A stretch of DNA of 64,000 nucleotides from the NCBI GenBank assembly GCA_905182565.1, contig CAJJCB010000020.1:124001-188000 (forward strand), written 5' to 3'. Position 1 is the first letter of the stretch, and every line of letters begins with the position of its first letter. Shown piece by piece: positions 47,431 to 60,523 of the stretch. Source of the DNA: Acidimicrobiaceae bacterium. Lineage in GTDB: Bacteria; Actinomycetota; Acidimicrobiia; Acidimicrobiales; Poriferisodalaceae. The notes beneath the pieces were generated by a model, which was not told the DNA's origin, ran no database searches, and worked only from the letters and a program-made list of their open reading frames with translations. A program made the translations under genes and the position numbers.

Positions 47431-47804
47431 AAAATTATTTCTCCGGGCACCAGCATCAAATCTTGTGAAACAAAACGCTTTCTCCATACAGGCAAAAGTT
47501 TGAGCCAAAGCGCCATTTCGCCATCTACTTTTATTTCACCTTTCATGTACTCAACCGCCGGATCAATCTCTCCTTTATAAAGAGATGCAGCAAGTTCGTA
47601 AGACATTTTGAGTTCAAGATTACGGCCCCTGATCGAACCCAGCTCGGCAGAAACTACTCGACCATCAATCATCACAACGCTCACAACTAATTTGCCATCT
47701 GGACAACCATCTATTTTGATGCAGATAGTTCCAGCCGCATCATCAATTTTAGGGTGCTCTACCTGGCTCCATTTACTAAGAAAGTCTGCTGACAAGAACC
47801 TCAT
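47427..47804 (-). CDS. SCP2-like sterol/lipid-binding protein
   Basis: 125-residue single-domain protein related to the SCP-2 sterol-transfer fold. The C-terminal helix-strand segment YELAASLYKGEIDPAVEYMKG, then EIKVDGEMALWLKLLPVW, is the recognisable part; the N-terminal beta-sheet (TICIKIDGCPDGKLVVSVVM) fits. It carries hydrophobic ligands or serves as a small cofactor-binding domain. It overlaps the end of the Mca-like gene by 4 bases, so it is translated right after that enzyme. Confidence 0.8.
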   Translation of the reverse strand: MRFLSADFLSKWSQVEHPKIDDAAGTICIKIDGCPDGKLVVSVVMIDGRVVSAELGSIRGRNLELKMSYELAASLYKGEIDPAVEYMKGEIKVDGEMALWLKLLPVWRKRFVSQDLMLVPGEIIF

Positions 47805-48676
47805 GGCCCCTCATCTCCAACGCTTACTATCTGGTCCCTGATCCCCGCAAAAAGGTCATCCTCTTCTGGCTCCGTCGAGATTCGAGAGCGCAGAATCATA
47901 TAGTCCTCATATGGATGAATCGCGTCTTGTACATCGTCAGGCAGACCAAACCAGAACGGCGATTTGGGGTCGACTTGAGTCTCATGCGCTAACAAGGCCC
48001 GTCGGCGAACAGAATTATCTACTTTCACCATCGCAGTGATGCGATCATCGCGATCATTTCCTGATAGCCACTTCTCGTCGTAAGGTGACTCAAGCCCACG
48101 ATCAAGGAAAGCCTGATGAGTAAGTAATATTCTTTTTTTGGACCAAACTGGAGCATATAGTTTCAGCGGTTCATATGGATCGCCTGCCTCTGGGTACCAT
48201 TCGGGATCTCCTGCACGATCAAAAGCAGGAAGGCTGATAGCAGTGACCTGTAAATGGTCTGGGTGCGGGTATCGATTCTGGATTTCCGGATAAGTAACAA
48301 TTACCTGAGGTCTAACACGCCTAATGATTGCTACTAGCCGCCCTACTGCGATATCTAAGTCAGCGTTCGCAAATGCATCCGGGTGAGAATTCGGTTCGGT
48401 TTCAGGCATCCCTGAGTCTCGGTACCCAAGCATTACAACCTCGTTATATCCAATAATTGATGCTGCTTTCTCAAGTTCTGCTCGCCGAACTTCTTCCAAA
48501 TTATTTTTTACTTCATCTCGGTCCATCGCTGGATTAAGGATGTCGCCCGCTTCGCCTCCAGTACAACAAACCAAGGTCGACTGAATTCCTTGACTTCTGT
48601 ATAGTTTGATAGTTCCGGGGCCCTTAGACGACTCATCGTCCGGATGGGCATGGATAGTAAGAATCGATAATGACAT
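47801..48676 (-). CDS. mca: Mycothiol S-conjugate amidase-like (PIG-L family)
   Basis: Zn-dependent amidase of the PIG-L (LmbE) family, 291 residues, closest to Mca, which cleaves mycothiol S-conjugates so the toxin leaves as a mercapturic acid. The zinc motif AHPDDE is at 10-15 (SILTIHAHPDDESSKGPG), then CCTGGEAGDILNP and NRYPHPDHLQVT with the second His site. These two long segments are typical of Mca rather than MshB. Start is the ATG at 48676 with TAGCTT 7 bases upstream; the frame extends to 48850 but that part overlaps the PhoU/RCK gene end. Downstream is an SCP2-like gene. Confidence 0.9.
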   Translation of the reverse strand: MSLSILTIHAHPDDESSKGPGTIKLYRSQGIQSTLVCCTGGEAGDILNPAMDRDEVKNNLEEVRRAELEKAASIIGYNEVVMLGYRDSGMPETEPNSHPDAFANADLDIAVGRLVAIIRRVRPQVIVTYPEIQNRYPHPDHLQVTAISLPAFDRAGDPEWYPEAGDPYEPLKLYAPVWSKKRILLTHQAFLDRGLESPYDEKWLSGNDRDDRITAMVKVDNSVRRRALLAHETQVDPKSPFWFGLPDDVQDAIHPYEDYMILRSRISTEPEEDDLFAGIRDQIVSVGDEGP

Positions 48677-48683
48677 TAAGCTC

Positions 48684-48689
48684 AAGCTA
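48684..48689 (-). promoter_or_regulatory. -10-like hexamer TAGCTT of the Mca-like gene
   Basis: Seven bases before the ATG at 48676, in the 37-base space after the PhoU/RCK gene; suggests an internal promoter. Confidence 0.35.
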
Positions 48690-48713
48690 TCAAGATCACA
48701 TGAAATAATCGGA

Positions 48714-49940
48714 TCAACTAGCTGTTGGGGTGAGATCAACCATCCCGGTTTCATCATCGAACTGTAAAACATATCCACAAATTTCAGCGAAACGCTCGCG
48801 ACCTTCTTCTGGACCTGACGCCAAGAGCTCATCACCAGAGCGCAGAACAATATTTTTTTGAGGGTTGTAAAGGTAACTACCAGCTCTTCTTATCGCCAAC
48901 ACGTGATATCCAGGATCTACAGACAAACCCAATGAACCTAAACTCATATTCTCTGCCGCAGACTCTGAGCCAATTGGTACTTGGACAACAACATCGCTCG
49001 TATCGCCTAACGCTAGCGCCAGCACAGGGTGGATATCTTCTTGATCCAATACGAGAGTTACCATCTGGAGCGCCTGGTCTCCTATATCTTCGGCAGCTTC
49101 AGCCAAGTGGAGCAGCCCACGAAGCTGCGATGGGTCTATGTCACTTGCTGCTGCTCTAAGTACCCAGGTCTGCAACGAAACTTTCATCCCATCAAGTCGT
49201 TCTTCAAGAGATCGAACCTCACGAGCAAGGGAAAGGTCACGAAGTACCAACGCAGAATAAGCAAGCCCTATCGAAGTCTCAGAAAGATTTTTCATTTCGA
49301 CAAGAGTGTCCACTGCTCGATCTAAATCAGTTAGGCCCTGAGTTGGGTCGAACTGGGGCGGAACCCAAACCGAAGCAGAGGCTAATTCACGAAGCCGAAC
49401 TATCCCAGCGGGCTCTCCGCGAACAAACAGCACATCACTGGGCTCTAAAACGCTTTCCCCACCTATGTCTGTTAACCATCGGCGCCCACGCTGAATCGCA
49501 ACTACTCGCATACCCACCACAACAGGTAGCTCCAAGTCAGCAAGCGAGCGACTAACCAAATGACTGCCCTGAGCAACTACTAGACGGTGAGACACTTCAG
49601 CTGCCTCAGCCATATCCACTAATAATGCCTGAGGAATTCCGATGTTTCGTAAAACTATTTTTGAGATATCTACAGCAGCGTTAGCAATTTGTTCAATCGA
49701 AGAAACCACCAACAAGACAGAACTCATTCCATCTACTTCACGCGGGTGGCGAACCGCCAACATCGTGAGCGATCTCATCTCATGAACAAGATCAGACATT
49801 TCCTCTTCAAGATCTAATACAGCTTCGGCCATGCCTTCATCATCAAAATACAACGCGGCATAAGCTAAATCGACCATTAGCTCCGAAGCATCTTTAGCTT
49901 CCGCCAGCATGGCTTTAAGGTTCCTGGGTTTATCATCCAT
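48714..49940 (-). CDS. Duplicated PhoU/TrkA_C (RCK_C) regulatory protein
   Basis: 408-residue soluble protein with two copies of the same plan: a PhoU-like helical domain (about 5-95 and 210-300) followed by an RCK_C ligand-binding domain (about 135-188, VVVGMRVVAIQRGRRWLTD; and about 330-392, SVDPGYHVLAIRRAGSYLYN). The helices contain PhoU-type acidic residues (ALYFDDEGMAEAVLDLEEEM). Such PhoU/RCK_C proteins are regulatory subunits of cation channels and transporters in archaea and actinobacteria. It lies 96 bases downstream of the MgtE-type transporter, its likely partner; RCK_C binds cyclic dinucleotides or divalent cations in relatives. Confidence 0.87.
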   Translation of the reverse strand: MDDKPRNLKAMLAEAKDASELMVDLAYAALYFDDEGMAEAVLDLEEEMSDLVHEMRSLTMLAVRHPREVDGMSSVLLVVSSIEQIANAAVDISKIVLRNIGIPQALLVDMAEAAEVSHRLVVAQGSHLVSRSLADLELPVVVGMRVVAIQRGRRWLTDIGGESVLEPSDVLFVRGEPAGIVRLRELASASVWVPPQFDPTQGLTDLDRAVDTLVEMKNLSETSIGLAYSALVLRDLSLAREVRSLEERLDGMKVSLQTWVLRAAASDIDPSQLRGLLHLAEAAEDIGDQALQMVTLVLDQEDIHPVLALALGDTSDVVVQVPIGSESAAENMSLGSLGLSVDPGYHVLAIRRAGSYLYNPQKNIVLRSGDELLASGPEEGRERFAEICGYVLQFDDETGMVDLTPTAS

Positions 49941-53019: not shown

Positions 53020-53177
53020 AGCGGGGTTCAATTAAATCTCGCCTCACTCGCCTATGACAATTACGAATAAAAAGGCGCCTTCCAAAAGTACTAAAACGAT
53101 TACCGAACCAGAAAATTTCATGAGGTGTTTTGATTCCAACCATGACCTAGGTAAGAAGAGGTGACAGACTACAGAAC

Positions 53178-54206
53178 GTGGAAACCAGAAAACTAGAATC
53201 AACAACCGGCTTTGTTCTTTATGACCTCCCCGATGCAGATAGTTATGTGGGGCCAGCACGGCTGGGAGCCAAGCTTGTACCCGATAACGCTGTCATGCTC
53301 ATACGAGCTTTGACTTATACCTTCGCCGTTCTCGAACAGAAACGAAGCGGCGCCACAATCGGTCTAAAAGTTGATCCTGACCAAACCGAAATAGCGGTAA
53401 TGTCCGCAGCCAAAGAGCTATCTGAAGAATTGCAATCAAAAAAGATTACCTTTAACCCTGGATTACGATTACAAAGAGAGCAAATTCTTCCTCTCCTTGA
53501 GCACGACACAAGAAACAAAATCGGACTCGATGACCGCAACGGAATCAGCTTCGAAGATGAACTAACTGGACTCGGAGCTTGTGCCGCCGCTCAGGCAGTA
53601 GCTGGAGGAATTGAAGGGCAATCCTTCGCTATCGAAGGTTTCAACTCAATTGGTTTAGGAATCGCTCGAGAAGTTGTTTCTCGTGGTGGAATAATCAAAC
53701 GAATTTCCACAGCTAAGGGCTGCGTCACAGGGCCCTTCGAACCAGATACTCTAGCCGATGCTTGGATGTCACATGGCCCTGGCTGCACGGAGCAACTCGG
53801 CGACATCGGCAAACCATGGGATATTTGGAAAGCTGACGTTGACGGAATTTTTGTAGGTTCAAAACCGGGGGCAATGGCTGCCCAAGGAGCTAACGGCTTA
53901 GAATCTAAGATCGTTGTGGCTACTTCTCCTGCAGCTATTTCTTCAAAAGCCTTAGCAATCCTCCGTCAAAATGACGCTCCTGCTATTGCTGATTTTATTG
54001 TGAATATCGGTCCTGTCCTATCTTGGTTCTCTCAAGCCGATACCACTCATGACCAACTTAGATCTCTAACAGAAACAACAATTAGTGCTCTAATAGCCGA
54101 CACGATTAATCATGATGATGGTCCATTTCTGGGCGCCTGCTACAAAGCTGAATCATTTTTAAGAACCTGGCAAGACCCAATGCCATTCGGCCGGCCACTG
54201 GGATAG
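53178..54206 (+). CDS. Divergent Glu/Leu/Phe/Val dehydrogenase-like protein lacking the catalytic lysines
   Basis: 342 residues, start GTG. The two-domain plan of amino-acid dehydrogenases is visible: an N-terminal domain (ARLGAKLVPDNAVMLIRALTYTFAVLE split over 28-53) and a Rossmann domain near 140-185 (GLGACAAAQAVAGGIEGQ, then FAIEGFNSIGLGIAREVVSR). In leucine dehydrogenase the corresponding N-terminal segments read MTYKNA and GGGKAV with the substrate and catalytic Lys; here they read LTYTFA (45-50) and SGATIG (57-62), so both Lys positions are Thr. It is unlikely to be a normal dehydrogenase. It faces dnaE2 convergently. Function unknown. Confidence 0.7.
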   Translation: METRKLESTTGFVLYDLPDADSYVGPARLGAKLVPDNAVMLIRALTYTFAVLEQKRSGATIGLKVDPDQTEIAVMSAAKELSEELQSKKITFNPGLRLQREQILPLLEHDTRNKIGLDDRNGISFEDELTGLGACAAAQAVAGGIEGQSFAIEGFNSIGLGIAREVVSRGGIIKRISTAKGCVTGPFEPDTLADAWMSHGPGCTEQLGDIGKPWDIWKADVDGIFVGSKPGAMAAQGANGLESKIVVATSPAAISSKALAILRQNDAPAIADFIVNIGPVLSWFSQADTTHDQLRSLTETTISALIADTINHDDGPFLGACYKAESFLRTWQDPMPFGRPLG

Positions 54207-54209
54207 GGA

Positions 54210-57200
54210 TCAGCAAAAGTCCCTGCTACGGATACCTTCAGCTAATTCAAGCATCTCAATTTTTTCAGCAACGATATTGATTACCCCTTCATGACGCTCA
54301 AGTCTGCCGCTAACGATAAGCGCTGATGCAGACCTCGCAACACTACGAAATCTGAGCCAACAGCCTTTCGAAACAACGACATTAATCAACCCTGTTTCAT
54401 CTTCAAGATTTATAAATAAAGTTCCACTCGCTGTAGATGGTCTCTGTCGATGAGTCACCACCCCAGCAACTTTTACTTTACCCTGAGCGCATGTTTTCAA
54501 AGACTCCGAAGTTTCTATTTTTAGAGTATTTAAGTTATCTCGAATGAACTTAGTCGGGTGACCCTCAGGAGCTACGCCTGTCGCCCACAAGTCAGCAAGC
54601 GAAACTTCGTACTCTGACATTCCAGGCAATGTTGGAGCAATCGCTCCAGTAACGATTCCTTGCAAATGGCTAGAGCTCGACTGTGCAACTGCTCCCGCAG
54701 TCCATAAAGCATCTCGCCTATTAAGCCCGAGAGAGGTAAAAGTCCCTGCGGTAGCTAATGCTTCAAGCTGCTTAAGATCCAACGAAACTCGGCGTGCAAG
54801 CTGCTCCATATTTTCATAAGGGCCAGCTTCAGCAATTTTCAAGGCGAGAGAATTCCCGATTCCTCGAACTGAGGAAAGCCCAAGCCTAACTCCAAAACCA
54901 GAATGCGATTCGGGAGATAGCTCAAGAATCGCATCATCCATCGAGGCATTCACATCAGGAGTTCTGACTGCAACCCCGTGTCGACGGGCATCTTGCACTA
55001 ACGAATGTGGAGAATAGAAACCCATCGGCTGAGAGTTGACGAGTGAAGCACAAAAGGCTGCAGGGTAGTGAAGCTTAATCCAGGAAGAAGAATAAACAAG
55101 GTTGGCAAATGAGACTGAATGACTTTCTGGGAATCCATAATTTGCGAAAGCAGACATTTTATTCCAGATTTGCTCTCCAATCTCATATGAAATTCCATGA
55201 TCAAACATTCCTGCGAACAAGCGGTGCTGGATTTCTTTCATTTTTTCTTTGGACCGCTTAGACCCCATCGCCTGACGCAATTGATCCGCTTCAGATGCGC
55301 TAAACCCAGCAACATCGATAGCCATCTGCATTAGTTGCTCCTGGAATAGTGGGACGCCTAAGGTTTTTGACAATGATTTTTTGAGAAGTGGATGCAGATA
55401 CGTTACTGCTTCAGTTCCATTGCGCCGCCGAATATAAGGGTGAACAGAACCACCTTGAATGGGCCCTGGTCTGATTAACGCTATTTCAACAACTAAGTCA
55501 TAGAAACAACGAGGCTTCAAACGAGGCAATGTCGCCATTTGTGCGCGAGATTCAACTTGAAAAACTCCAATTGAATCTGCTTCGCATAACATTTGATACA
55601 CCTCATCTTCTTGAGGAAGCGCAGATAAATCAAGATCAACTCCGTATGCATTAGCGATCAGGTCAACTGAGCGATGCAAAGCAGACAACATACCCAAACC
55701 AAGCAAATCAAACTTTACGAGTCCTACCGCAGCGCAGTCATCTTTATCCCATTGCAGCACCGAACGCTTGGCCATTCTTCCCCATTCAACTGGGCAGACT
55801 TCAACTATTGGGCGGTCGCATATAACCATTCCACCCGAATGGATTCCTAGGTGCCGAGGAGAATTCTCTATTTCAGAAGCTAACCGAAGAACATCGATAG
55901 GAATTTGATTATTGCTTTCATTCCCATCATTTTGTTGAGTCCTAATAGGCAAATTATTTTGATCGTCACTTGCCTCTAGAAAAGCAGTCTTTGAAGATAG
56001 TGGCTCGCTATTTTTTACAGCCAGATCCAAAGAACTATTCCGATCTAACGACTTTGCCCAAGCATCCTGTTGACCTGTGGAGTACCCGAGAGCTCTTGCC
56101 ATATCTCGCACAGCAGAGCGCGGGCGATAGGTAATGACATTTGCCACTTGAGCGGTATGAGAACGCCCATACCGCTCAAAAATATATTGGATGACCTCTT
56201 CTCGCCGATCACTTTCAATATCAAGATCTATATCCGGTGGGTTATTTCGCTCAGCAGATAGAAACCTTTCAAATAAAAGTCCTAAAGACACCGAATCAAC
56301 ATTAGTAATTCTTAGTGCATAACAAACAGCTGAATTCGCAGCAGAACCTCTGCCTTGGCAATAAATATCCCGGGTCCGACAAAATGAGACTATGTCCCAA
56401 ACAACAAGAAAATACCCAGCGAACCCAAGCTGTTCTATAAGGCCTAGTTCATGATCAACTTGGGTCCAAGCACCGATAACTCGTTCATGCAAACGCCGCC
56501 CATAACACCTGATAGACCTCTCCTCAACTAGCTCTCTCAAATAGGTAATCTCGTCAAGCCCATTAGGACATGGGTACGGTGGCAAACTCGGCGCTACAAG
56601 TGATAGATCGAAAGAACAATCCTTACCTAAGGAATCAGCTACCTCGACAACACCTGGGTAACGAGAGAATCGCTGTGCCTGCTCATCACCTGAACGAAGA
56701 TAAGCAGAACCTGCCGAAGGAAGCCACCCATTAATTTCTTCAAGCGACCTGCGGCTGCGAACAGCGGCCATAGCAGCGGCTAAGTAACGACGTTTAGGGG
56801 TCGCATAGTGAACTCCATTTGTACAGAGCGACTTAACTTTACTGCTCGTCGCTAATTCATATAACGTCTTATTCCGTGAACTGTCACGAGGATCACCATG
56901 ATCCCATAACTCGACAAAAACATTAGAGCGCCCAGCAGCATCTACTAAAAGATCTAGTTTTTTGCTGGCCTGGGTAAGCCCTCCAGATGCTAAAGCCGCT
57001 GGCACAATTCCTTTCCGCCCTCCAGTAAGGATTGCCCAATCATCTCTGTTGCTATCAAGAGCTGCTAAAAGTTCGTCGCTTGATAGCAATGGGGAACCTT
57101 TAGTCCCGTTCATCTGAGCTTTCGAAATCAATGTAGCTAGTGAGCTATAACCTTGAGGGCCACGAGAGAGAACTACGAGATGCTGTCCTGCTGGGTCAGC

Positions 57201-57635
57201 GACACCATTGCGAGAAGAGCTAAGTTTAGAACTTTCTGTAGATTGCCAGGAGTCAACGGTTAACTCCACACCAAAAACTGTCGGTAACCCAACTTTTTTT
57301 GCCGCTTCAGCAAATCGTACGACACCATAGAATCCGCCATGATCGGTAAGCGCCAAAGCGCTAAGCCCAATATCAGCAGCAACCGTCGCTAATTCTTCTG
57401 GACTGGAAGCGCCATCAAGAAAACTAAAATAAGAATGTGCATGTAGCTCTGCATAGGAAGTTTGATTTTCGCGTCCAGATATCAGCCTTTGAGAAGTGTT
57501 TTTGTTACTTAGGTTTTGTTCATAACTGTTAGGTTCTGAAGCAATGAAAGATTTACTTCCCTTATTGTCAGAAAGTTGTTGCTCAAGGTCACGCCAAGGC
57601 ATAGAAGAAGAATTAAAGCCCATACCCTCCAGCAT
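54210..57635 (-). CDS. dnaE2: Error-prone DNA polymerase III alpha subunit DnaE2
   Basis: 1141-residue C-family polymerase used for damage tolerance and induced mutagenesis. The N-terminal PHP domain retains its histidines (AELHAHSYFSFLDGA, 62-76; TDHG, 97-100). The polymerase core has QGRGSAANSAVCYALRI (427-443), the catalytic PDIDLD (467-472) and LGIHSGGMVI; the C-terminal OB domain reads VKVAGVVTHRQRPSTASGT. An insertion of roughly 60 residues rich in Asn, Ser and Gln lies before the LGIH motif (about 525-590). The start may be the ATG at 57635, or an in-frame ATG at 57623. A LexA-type palindrome touches the start. Length fits DnaE2 (about 1050-1080) rather than DnaE1. Confidence 0.96.
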   Translation of the reverse strand: MLEGMGFNSSSMPWRDLEQQLSDNKGSKSFIASEPNSYEQNLSNKNTSQRLISGRENQTSYAELHAHSYFSFLDGASSPEELATVAADIGLSALALTDHGGFYGVVRFAEAAKKVGLPTVFGVELTVDSWQSTESSKLSSSRNGVADPAGQHLVVLSRGPQGYSSLATLISKAQMNGTKGSPLLSSDELLAALDSNRDDWAILTGGRKGIVPAALASGGLTQASKKLDLLVDAAGRSNVFVELWDHGDPRDSSRNKTLYELATSSKVKSLCTNGVHYATPKRRYLAAAMAAVRSRRSLEEINGWLPSAGSAYLRSGDEQAQRFSRYPGVVEVADSLGKDCSFDLSLVAPSLPPYPCPNGLDEITYLRELVEERSIRCYGRRLHERVIGAWTQVDHELGLIEQLGFAGYFLVVWDIVSFCRTRDIYCQGRGSAANSAVCYALRITNVDSVSLGLLFERFLSAERNNPPDIDLDIESDRREEVIQYIFERYGRSHTAQVANVITYRPRSAVRDMARALGYSTGQQDAWAKSLDRNSSLDLAVKNSEPLSSKTAFLEASDDQNNLPIRTQQNDGNESNNQIPIDVLRLASEIENSPRHLGIHSGGMVICDRPIVEVCPVEWGRMAKRSVLQWDKDDCAAVGLVKFDLLGLGMLSALHRSVDLIANAYGVDLDLSALPQEDEVYQMLCEADSIGVFQVESRAQMATLPRLKPRCFYDLVVEIALIRPGPIQGGSVHPYIRRRNGTEAVTYLHPLLKKSLSKTLGVPLFQEQLMQMAIDVAGFSASEADQLRQAMGSKRSKEKMKEIQHRLFAGMFDHGISYEIGEQIWNKMSAFANYGFPESHSVSFANLVYSSSWIKLHYPAAFCASLVNSQPMGFYSPHSLVQDARRHGVAVRTPDVNASMDDAILELSPESHSGFGVRLGLSSVRGIGNSLALKIAEAGPYENMEQLARRVSLDLKQLEALATAGTFTSLGLNRRDALWTAGAVAQSSSSHLQGIVTGAIAPTLPGMSEYEVSLADLWATGVAPEGHPTKFIRDNLNTLKIETSESLKTCAQGKVKVAGVVTHRQRPSTASGTLFINLEDETGLINVVVSKGCWLRFRSVARSASALIVSGRLERHEGVINIVAEKIEMLELAEGIRSRDFC

Positions 57636-57692: not shown

Positions 57693-59123
57693 ATGAACAT
57701 TCCTCTAGATGGCATTGCTCTTGCTCAACTAGTAGCAAAAAAAGAAGCTTCTCCTATCGAACTCGTAGATGATGCTCTAAGTAGAATCAAACGCGTCAAC
57801 GGCGATCTAAACGCAGTCATTCACCATCTTGATACCTCCGCTCGAGAACGCGCTACGGCAATGACTAAAACTGAAGCTCCTGAATCAGCAACTCTTTGGG
57901 GCGTCCCATTCCTCACTAAAGATCTAACCTGCATGACTGCCGGGGATCCTTACCATGCAGGAAACGTTGCTTTACGTGATGCTAATTACCATGCCGACCA
58001 TGACTCTTATCTAGCTATTATGTTTCGCGACCTTGGACTTGTGAATTTAGGGAGAACCAATACTCCTGAATTTGGTGGAACCGTAACCACCGAGCCAGTT
58101 GCATACGGAGCTAGCCACAACCCCTGGAACCTTAAACATTCCACAGGAGGGTCAAGTGGCGGTTCAGCAGCAGCTGTTGCTGCTGGAATTGTTCCTATCG
58201 CACACGCTAATGATGGCGGCGGGTCTATCCGGATTCCAGCGTCAGAATGTGGCTTGTTCGGACTTAAACCTAGTCGGGGCAGAGTCTCTTTTGGGCCCCT
58301 CTTTGGTGAACTTTGGGGAGGGGCCACAATGGATGGTGTAGTTAGCCGCAGCGTCCGTGACTCAGCGCGTGTACTCGATGGCATCAGCCGTTCATGGCCC
58401 GGAGATCCTTACTCGGCACCAAAACCTAAAATTTCATTCGAAGATTCTCTTGCCAACAACCCACAAGGTCTCCGAATCGGGATATGCCCTCAATCAGATT
58501 GGGGGGCTGTTCATTCCGAGTGCACACAAAGTGTGGAATCAGCTGCCAAGCTTCTCGAAGGGCTAGGACATAAGGTAGAAATAGCATTCCCAAAAGATTT
58601 GTTCAATGACCAATTTTTCAAACATTTTAGAGTGGTGTTAGCTGTCGCAAATGCAGCAACAGCTAATGACCTAGGCAATGCAATAGGTCGGCCTTTAACA
58701 AAAAATGATATGGAGGCTGACACAGCAGCGCTTGTCTCAATCGGCCAATCCTTATCTGGAATGGAATATTTAAATTCAATAGAATGGTTTCATTCCTACA
58801 CCAGACAGATGGTGAGCTGGTGGAGCGAATACGACGTTTTGATTACCCCCGTCCTAACAGAACCACCTCCTCTTATCGGAGAGCTTCGTCACCCTCGAAC
58901 AGGCAGCCAGCGACTGGGAGAGCTTCTACATTACACAGCCCAATTCAACGTAACTGGCCAGCCTGCAATGTCAATGCCTCTACATGAAACACATGATGGG
59001 CTTCCAGTCGGAGTTCAATTTATAGGACCTCCACATGGCGAAGATTTGCTTTTGGCTCTAGCCGCACAGATAGAAACAGCTACACCTTGGGCTCACCGGT
59101 TGCCTTCGATTTGGTCGCAATGA
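57693..59123 (+). CDS. Amidase (amidase-signature family), first of a tandem pair
   Basis: 476-residue amidase with the Ser-Ser-Lys catalytic triad of the amidase-signature family. The signature [33 protein letters not shown] (split: [15 protein letters not shown] and [13 protein letters not shown]) gives the cis-Ser and nucleophile Ser; the catalytic Lys is in [10 protein letters not shown]. It hydrolyses amides to acid and ammonia; the substrate is unknown (nicotinamide, aryl amides or acyl amino acids are possible). Its stop overlaps the start of the second amidase by 4 bases. The pair are about equally long and clearly paralogous. Confidence 0.93.
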
Positions 59124-60523
59124 ACGACATCCGACAACATGATGCGACAGCTCTACGAACAGAACTATTAGCTGGCACTATCTCACCGCCAGAAGCACTA
59201 GGCAGAACGATTGAACAATTCAACGCCTGGAACCCAACCATTAACGCAATTATTCACCCGCGGCTAGATCAAGCATTATACGAAGCTGCGCAGGTTGACT
59301 TAGACCAAGGAGCCCTTGCTGGCGTTCCAATTGCAATCAAAGACCTCGGATGTGAACAAGCCGGTGAACCATTCCATTGCGGCACATCCTTTCTCCGCAA
59401 CTTAAACTGGAAAAGCACTTACAACAGCTACTTATGGTCGGCGTTGGCAGCAGCGGGAGCTATTTCTATTGGGAGAACAAACACTCCAGAGTTTGGCTCA
59501 ACTATCACCACAGAGCCCACAGCGTATGGAGCAACACGAAATCCTCACGAGATTAGATATTCTGCCGGCGGTTCCAGCGGTGGTTCAGCAGCAGCTGTAG
59601 CCGCTGGAATAGTTCCAATCGCTCATGGAAATGATGGAGGGGGTTCGCTCCGAATCCCTGCTAGCGCATGTGGCTTAATTGGTTTGAAACCAAGCCGAGG
59701 CACAGTATCTGCAGGGCCAACGAGATCAGAGCACAGACACGGCCTAGGAATCGATGGTGTACTCACTAAGACAGTGCGAGATACCGCTCTAGCTTTAGAT
59801 GTAATCTCAGGTTCGCGTTATGGAGATTACGTCACAACAGAATTACCTGTTGCTAGCTACAGTAAACTTTTAGCGACAGACCCAGGGCCGCAAAAAATTG
59901 CTATCGCAACTTTTTCCGCCCATCCTGCTTGCGTTGACGCTGTGAACAAAACTGCTTCTCTTCTCGAAGGCCTTGGTCACCAAATAACAGCAGGCAAAAA
60001 CCCACCAGAATGGTTTAGTAACGACGTAACAGATCAAATAATCGTCCTTAGGACTATTGGCATGGCCCAGGAGCTATACCAATGGGGCGAAGAAATTGGC
60101 AGACCTATCACACAAGAAGACATTGAACCTTCGAACTGGTGGTCATCTGAATTAGGGAAAACCCTCCCGGGGACTATGTACCTAGCAGCTCAGAACTGGC
60201 TACACCATTGGTCGCGTCGCACCTCATCTTTTTGGAACGACTTCGATTTACTGCTGACACCAGTCCTTGGAGGTTTGACTCCCACAATCGGTTTCCTTTC
60301 TGACCCAAAAACTGGCCAGCAGCAATTGAGAGAATTAATTGGGTTCGTCGACCAAGCCAACGTCACAGGCCAACCAGCAATTTCCGTCCCAGTCGGTGAA
60401 CACGAAGGACTCCCTATCGGAGTTCAAGTCATTGCAGCGCGCGGCCGAGATACTCTGCTCCTACAAATAGCACAGCAGCTAGAGGACTCAGGGGCTTTCA
60501 CCAAACTCTCTAACGAATTATGA
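59120..60523 (+). CDS. Amidase (amidase-signature family), second of a tandem pair
   Basis: 467-residue amidase, start ATG at 59120 in an ATGA overlap with the first amidase. The catalytic Lys is in GVPIAIKDL; the Ser-rich signature is [15 protein letters not shown] followed by GNDGGGSLRIPASACGLIGL. The two proteins share most signature segments but differ in the C-terminal loops that shape the acyl pocket, so they may act on different amides or as a heteromer. Its stop overlaps the start of a membrane-protein gene by 4 bases, forming a three-gene coupled unit. Confidence 0.92.
   Translation: MNDIRQHDATALRTELLAGTISPPEALGRTIEQFNAWNPTINAIIHPRLDQALYEAAQVDLDQGALAGVPIAIKDLGCEQAGEPFHCGTSFLRNLNWKSTYNSYLWSALAAAGAISIGRTNTPEFGSTITTEPTAYGATRNPHEIRYSAGGSSGGSAAAVAAGIVPIAHGNDGGGSLRIPASACGLIGLKPSRGTVSAGPTRSEHRHGLGIDGVLTKTVRDTALALDVISGSRYGDYVTTELPVASYSKLLATDPGPQKIAIATFSAHPACVDAVNKTASLLEGLGHQITAGKNPPEWFSNDVTDQIIVLRTIGMAQELYQWGEEIGRPITQEDIEPSNWWSSELGKTLPGTMYLAAQNWLHHWSRRTSSFWNDFDLLLTPVLGGLTPTIGFLSDPKTGQQQLRELIGFVDQANVTGQPAISVPVGEHEGLPIGVQVIAARGRDTLLLQIAQQLEDSGAFTKLSNEL

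Follow-up and report, generated by a model that had tools for sequence, protein, structure and literature searches.

Many genomes of the Acidimicrobiales encode proteins that are predicted to fold like glutamate dehydrogenases but have none of the key catalytic residues of these enzymes. Are such proteins pseudoenzymes, or enzymes with another chemistry? The question was raised by a gene in the 64,000-nucleotide stretch of Acidimicrobiaceae DNA analyzed here (the window), whose product, according to a preliminary description made from the letters alone, may be a regulatory or ligand-binding pseudoenzyme, if it is not an enzyme of novel chemistry. Fold, profile alignment, family-wide residue loss, dN/dS and distribution all support the core of that reading, namely a maintained gene whose product is not an ordinary dehydrogenase.

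The gene and its fold

The reading frame is complete, as had been described, from a GTG start to a TAG stop (Table 1), and the GTG is common to all 15 close orthologs compared. In most close orthologs outside the window genus, TGGCACAATT is found about 15 bases upstream of the GTG, and a clear Shine-Dalgarno sequence is absent; this arrangement looks like leaderless transcription from an extended -10 box.

Taken alone, the protein narrowly misses the Pfam cut-off of PF00208 (ELFV_dehydrog; E 6.6e-5, 23.2 bits, cut-off 23.4), and a single-sequence phmmer search finds a plant glutamate dehydrogenase (PDB 8s38) at 4e-9. With a family profile made from a 36-sequence alignment, residues 13-288 match PDB glutamate dehydrogenases with an E of 2e-22, so that similarity is significant across both domains, and PF00208 is matched by 29 of the 36 members (E 0.01). 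The AF2 model of the window protein (pLDDT 94.4, pTM 0.92) has the two-domain glutamate dehydrogenase fold; compared with glutamate dehydrogenases it gives a Z of 32.3 (1b26), with 326 of 342 residues aligned at 2.7 Å. The assignment to the ELFV dehydrogenase fold is secure, and the dehydrogenase domain order proposed earlier holds.

Table 1. Features of the gene and its surroundings (window positions unless a locus is named)
Feature	Position	Strand	Basis and remarks
Pseudo-dehydrogenase gene	53178..54206	+	342 aa; GTG start; stop included; profile, fold and ortholog evidence
N-terminal ELFV dimerization domain	53178..53498	+	Residues 1-107; profile alignment to 3aoe_E and 8s38, column counts
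T48 codon (LTYTFA)	53319..53321	+	Position of MTxK lysine; variable in family; alignment columns
T60 codon (SGATIG)	53355..53357	+	Position of catalytic lysine of GGxKGG; Ser/Thr in 89/93
G95 codon	53460..53462	+	Position of catalytic Asp; Gly/Ala in 93/93 members
Degenerate Rossmann domain	53622..53999	+	Residues 149-274; starts SFAIEGFNSIGLG; AF2 model and alignment
C-terminal helix and tail GACYKAESFLRTWQDPMPFGRPLG	54132..54203	+	Alignment columns, tree set
Error-prone DNA polymerase gene	54210-57635	-	NF004225, 1400 bits, cut-off 939
TGGCACAATT region	53143-53180; same position in L082-L094, L104		
DNA-repair neighbor loci	window 54210-57635; L203, L206, L207, L210, L217; L226; L116, L198, L212, L224, L227		

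Active-site and cofactor positions

According to profile and multiple alignments, V24 occupies the position of the glutamate dehydrogenase lysine that precedes the GGxR motif, T48 (LTYTFA) aligns with the lysine of MTWK (MTWKTA), T60 (SGATIG) with the catalytic lysine of GGAKGG, and G95 with the catalytic aspartate of PAPDxGT. Three lysines and the catalytic Asp of the N-terminal ELFV domain are thereby replaced; we take their counterparts in the clostridial enzyme to be K89, K113, K125 and D165. The preliminary description had noted the two threonines, and the profile alignment and fold check turned up neither lysines at the active-site positions nor an unrelated fold; the loss of a third active-site lysine (V24) and of the Asp (G95) goes beyond what it foresaw.

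Each of the 46 canonical sequences compared has lysine in both MTxK and GGxKGG, the Asp and all three Rossmann glycines. For the family, 95 sequences were collected, of which two (L216 and L219) were removed as members of a catalytically equipped sister subfamily, leaving 93 members of what we call the dead clade. Not one of these 93 sampled sequences retains the MTxK lysine, the GGxKGG lysine or the catalytic Asp. The position of the GGxKGG lysine is occupied by Ser (67), Thr (22) or Ala (4) and that of the Asp by Gly (74) or Ala (19), while the MTxK position, never Lys, has Thr (29), Val (15), Ala (14), Gly (8), Gln (8) and others. Because of these column counts, T60 is best seen as a conserved hydroxyl and T48 as one among many replacements; the importance first implied for both threonines holds for T60 (Ser/Thr in 89 of 93) and not for T48.

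The cofactor site is similarly altered. As first described, the Rossmann motif of the window protein is degenerate, reading EGFNSIGLG, with GFNSIG where GxGxxG is expected. The three GxGxxG glycines, invariant in the 46 canonical sequences, are variable columns in the family (present in 60, 30 and 46 of 68 members, respectively). In the window model, residues 180-210 make up a beta-hairpin and a helix that belong to the nucleotide-binding domain; 16 of the 93 members lack them, and one short member of this kind, with 298 aa, is still modeled confidently with an ELFV-like fold (pLDDT 94.7, Z 28.9).

None of the marks of a functional glutamate, leucine, phenylalanine or valine dehydrogenase is found, whether the two lysines, the catalytic Asp or the GxGxxG motif, and the residues for binding the substrate carboxylate, for catalysis and for holding the dinucleotide are missing from the predicted ELFV fold. 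From the alignments we infer that NAD binding has been lost in the dead clade and that the window protein no longer oxidizes amino acids. Could it be a working amino acid dehydrogenase that uses substitute residues for the lysines? The fold is kept and the window protein still has Gly at both ends of GFNSIG, but the lysines and Asp are gone throughout the clade and some members lack part of the nucleotide-binding domain, which makes this very improbable.

Selection, distribution and ancestry

The suggestion that the gene is maintained and not decaying was borne out. Against a 94%-identical congener its dN/dS is 0.10 (NG86) to 0.14 (YN00), and 62 of the 83 differences fall in third codon positions. 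Matches occur in 36 of 37 genomes of its own family (own genome included); across the order, 127 of 298 genomes have one at E 1e-30. The gene is maintained by purifying selection across Acidimicrobiales. That it is decaying or a gene-calling artefact hardly needs to be entertained, and was rejected because dN/dS is low; moreover, the ortholog frames are open and the distribution is order-wide.

Named records with family members are almost all metagenome-assembled genomes (MAGs) labeled Acidimicrobiia or Acidimicrobiales. One MAG, JADFOM01 (L119, L126), is labeled Acidobacteria; its family member clusters with Acidimicrobiales sequences, and the label is probably a misassignment or reflects contamination. 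No relatives were found in viral contigs or phage records, PADLOC gave no match and PHROGs only chance-level hits; a phage or defense origin was rejected, there being no viral-contig, phage-record or PADLOC match.

In trees that were quick searches, the dead-clade sequences all group together (SH-aLRT 99), and their sister is a small subfamily in which both lysines, the Asp and GFGKVG are intact; the two are jointly set off from the canonical ELFV enzymes with support 100. The sister members come from genomes G095 (L055/L226), G451 (L228), G543 (L229) and G480 (L230) and from Nonomuraea gerenzanensis (L237), and in G480 and G543 they co-occur with dead-clade proteins. Two sister proteins that were scanned score 96-102 bits with PF00208 and 44-53 bits with PF02812, well over the Pfam cut-offs. 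Since the sister group has the two lysines, the Asp and GFGKVG, the dead clade most likely goes back to an ancestor that had the catalytic equipment.

Two sister-clade sequences deserve mention. One copy (L231, genome G515) lacks both lysines and the Asp, having R, A and E instead, apparently an independent second loss. The N. gerenzanensis protein (L237:5995-7158) has both lysines, the Asp and GFGKVG, with Ala at the pre-GGxR lysine and a repeated C-terminal tail; it is possibly an uncharacterized amino acid dehydrogenase.

Possible roles and comparison with known systems

Does the genomic context betray a function? Convergent with the window gene is a gene for an error-prone DNA polymerase, whose end lies 4 bases past that of the window gene, and in the own family the neighbors include this polymerase gene and an acyl-CoA-thioesterase-like gene. 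In several families an xseA - xseB - polyprenyl synthase - RF3 group lies beside the family gene, a photolyase cluster adjoins it in five loci, and other lineages show H+-PPase, ApbE, GGDEF, sulfatase, luciferase-like or beta-lactamase-fold neighbors. Inferring function from neighbors was rejected, as contexts differ by lineage and share no common pathway. DNA-repair genes recur in unrelated contexts (error-prone DNA polymerase, DNA photolyase, ExoVII subunits, and a LigD primase-polymerase gene that adjoins a sister protein), an association that, having been spotted post hoc and without a control, is only a lead. Elsewhere in the window, two adjacent amidase-family genes at 57693-60523 (476 and 478 aa) look like a tandem duplication, and a gene at 47801-48850 encodes the mycothiol conjugate amidase Mca (281.6 bits, cut-off 277); to judge by this gene, the organism therefore probably makes mycothiol.

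Regulation of a glutamate dehydrogenase partner was the first role considered, because the best PDB profile match is chain E of the Thermus thermophilus heterohexamer 3aoe, in which GGAAGG stands against the GGAKGG of active subunits. This chain is GdhA, which is described as catalytically inactive and as serving regulation, namely activation by leucine (PMC9570180). The window protein would by analogy regulate an active glutamate or leucine dehydrogenase, and by sequence it is indeed a dead ELFV paralog. A partner dehydrogenase was not found in the same genome, however: PF02812, a second PF00208 and PF05088 were sought in the genome of origin (G000, assembly 95.6% complete) with no match, so that it shows neither another ELFV protein nor a large glutamate dehydrogenase. 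The same holds for 17 of the 24 family genomes with at least 90% completeness, and linkage to a dehydrogenase gene is absent in every context seen. Because its own genome has no partner gene, a GdhA-like role is very unlikely.

What the protein might do instead is suggested by the residues that it conserves. D16, R43, Y47 and W331 are conserved in the dead clade and the sister alike, and C321 and E325 mostly so. Because they are largely common to the equipped sister, all six are probably structural, and the idea that C321, E325 and W331 form a new active site is weakened, the sister having most of them. Found in the dead clade only are S/T60, G/A95, the G-S-K at 227-229 (G-A-R in the sister), K/R257 (Gly or Ala in the sister) and the tail motif FGRP; R112 hardly varies among dead-clade members, and the sister is mixed at that position. 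GSK and K257 belong to the Rossmann domain of the window protein, and K257 is replaced by Arg in 13 of 68 members. S/T60, G/A95, R112, GSK, K/R257 and FGRP are thus candidate residues for the present role, and the topology of glutamate dehydrogenase suggests that they line one cleft.

We lean towards the view that the window protein is a maintained, cofactor-less pseudo-dehydrogenase used to bind a ligand or a partner, a reading adopted because its own genome, like 17 of the 24 near-complete family genomes, shows no partner glutamate dehydrogenase. Such a protein would act non-catalytically, probably as a dimer or oligomer. The remodeled inter-domain cleft, with a pocket drawn from the aligned columns (the candidate residues above), would take up either a partner protein or a small ligand, probably an anion, and domain closure would serve as the signal.

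It is equally conceivable that the conserved polar residues come together in a new active site. In that case the ELFV scaffold would have been re-equipped, with S/T60, K229, K/R257 and the C-terminal tail making up an NAD-independent active site; that S/T60, R112, GSK, K/R257 and FGRP are conserved specifically in the dead clade, and over some 25-35% identity, suggests a functional site. Set against this are the lack of an operon or pathway context, the sharing of the best-conserved residues (C321, E325, W331, R43, Y47, D16) largely with the equipped sister, and the Arg found in place of K257 in some members. We consider new chemistry a minority possibility. Rather unlikely, too, is its most specific form, in which the glutamate dehydrogenase scaffold would carry an enzyme class of its own, with NAD-independent chemistry in the inter-domain cleft, Ser/Thr standing in for the catalytic lysine, and a Lys/Arg (K257) newly supplied by the former nucleotide-binding domain.

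The ELFV dehydrogenases are textbook enzymes, and a dead clade beside an equipped sister is a natural experiment in how an enzyme fold becomes a non-enzyme or a new enzyme. A literature search, which is weak evidence, found no published description of such a family. There is also a practical side: automatic annotation could label its members glutamate dehydrogenase, and genomes without that enzyme would then be wrongly assumed to assimilate ammonium with it.

With the ELFV dehydrogenases (glutamate, leucine and phenylalanine dehydrogenases; PF02812 plus PF00208) the pseudo-dehydrogenase of the window shares the entire predicted fold and the domain order, and it keeps the Gly and Arg of GGxR (G25, R28), the lysine-loop glycines G58 and G62 and the Asp of the PD motif (D272). 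It differs from them in lacking the active-site lysines, the catalytic Asp and an intact GxGxxG, in being shorter (342 aa, with some relatives at ~280-300), and in its own FGRP tail. The equipped sister subfamily resembles it in length, in the N-terminal motif, in R43 and Y47, and in a C-terminal helix with C..AE.F..TW, whose C, E and W are mostly common to both groups; unlike it, the sister keeps both lysines, the Asp and GFGKVG and has no FGRP, K257 or GSK. T. thermophilus GdhA (PDB 3AOE chain E) is likewise a dead ELFV paralog in which the position of the catalytic lysine is replaced (Ala there, Ser/Thr in the dead clade), but by alignment the MTxK lysine and the Asp are intact in GdhA, whose partner is a glutamate dehydrogenase, whereas the window protein lacks both residues and no partner gene was found for it.
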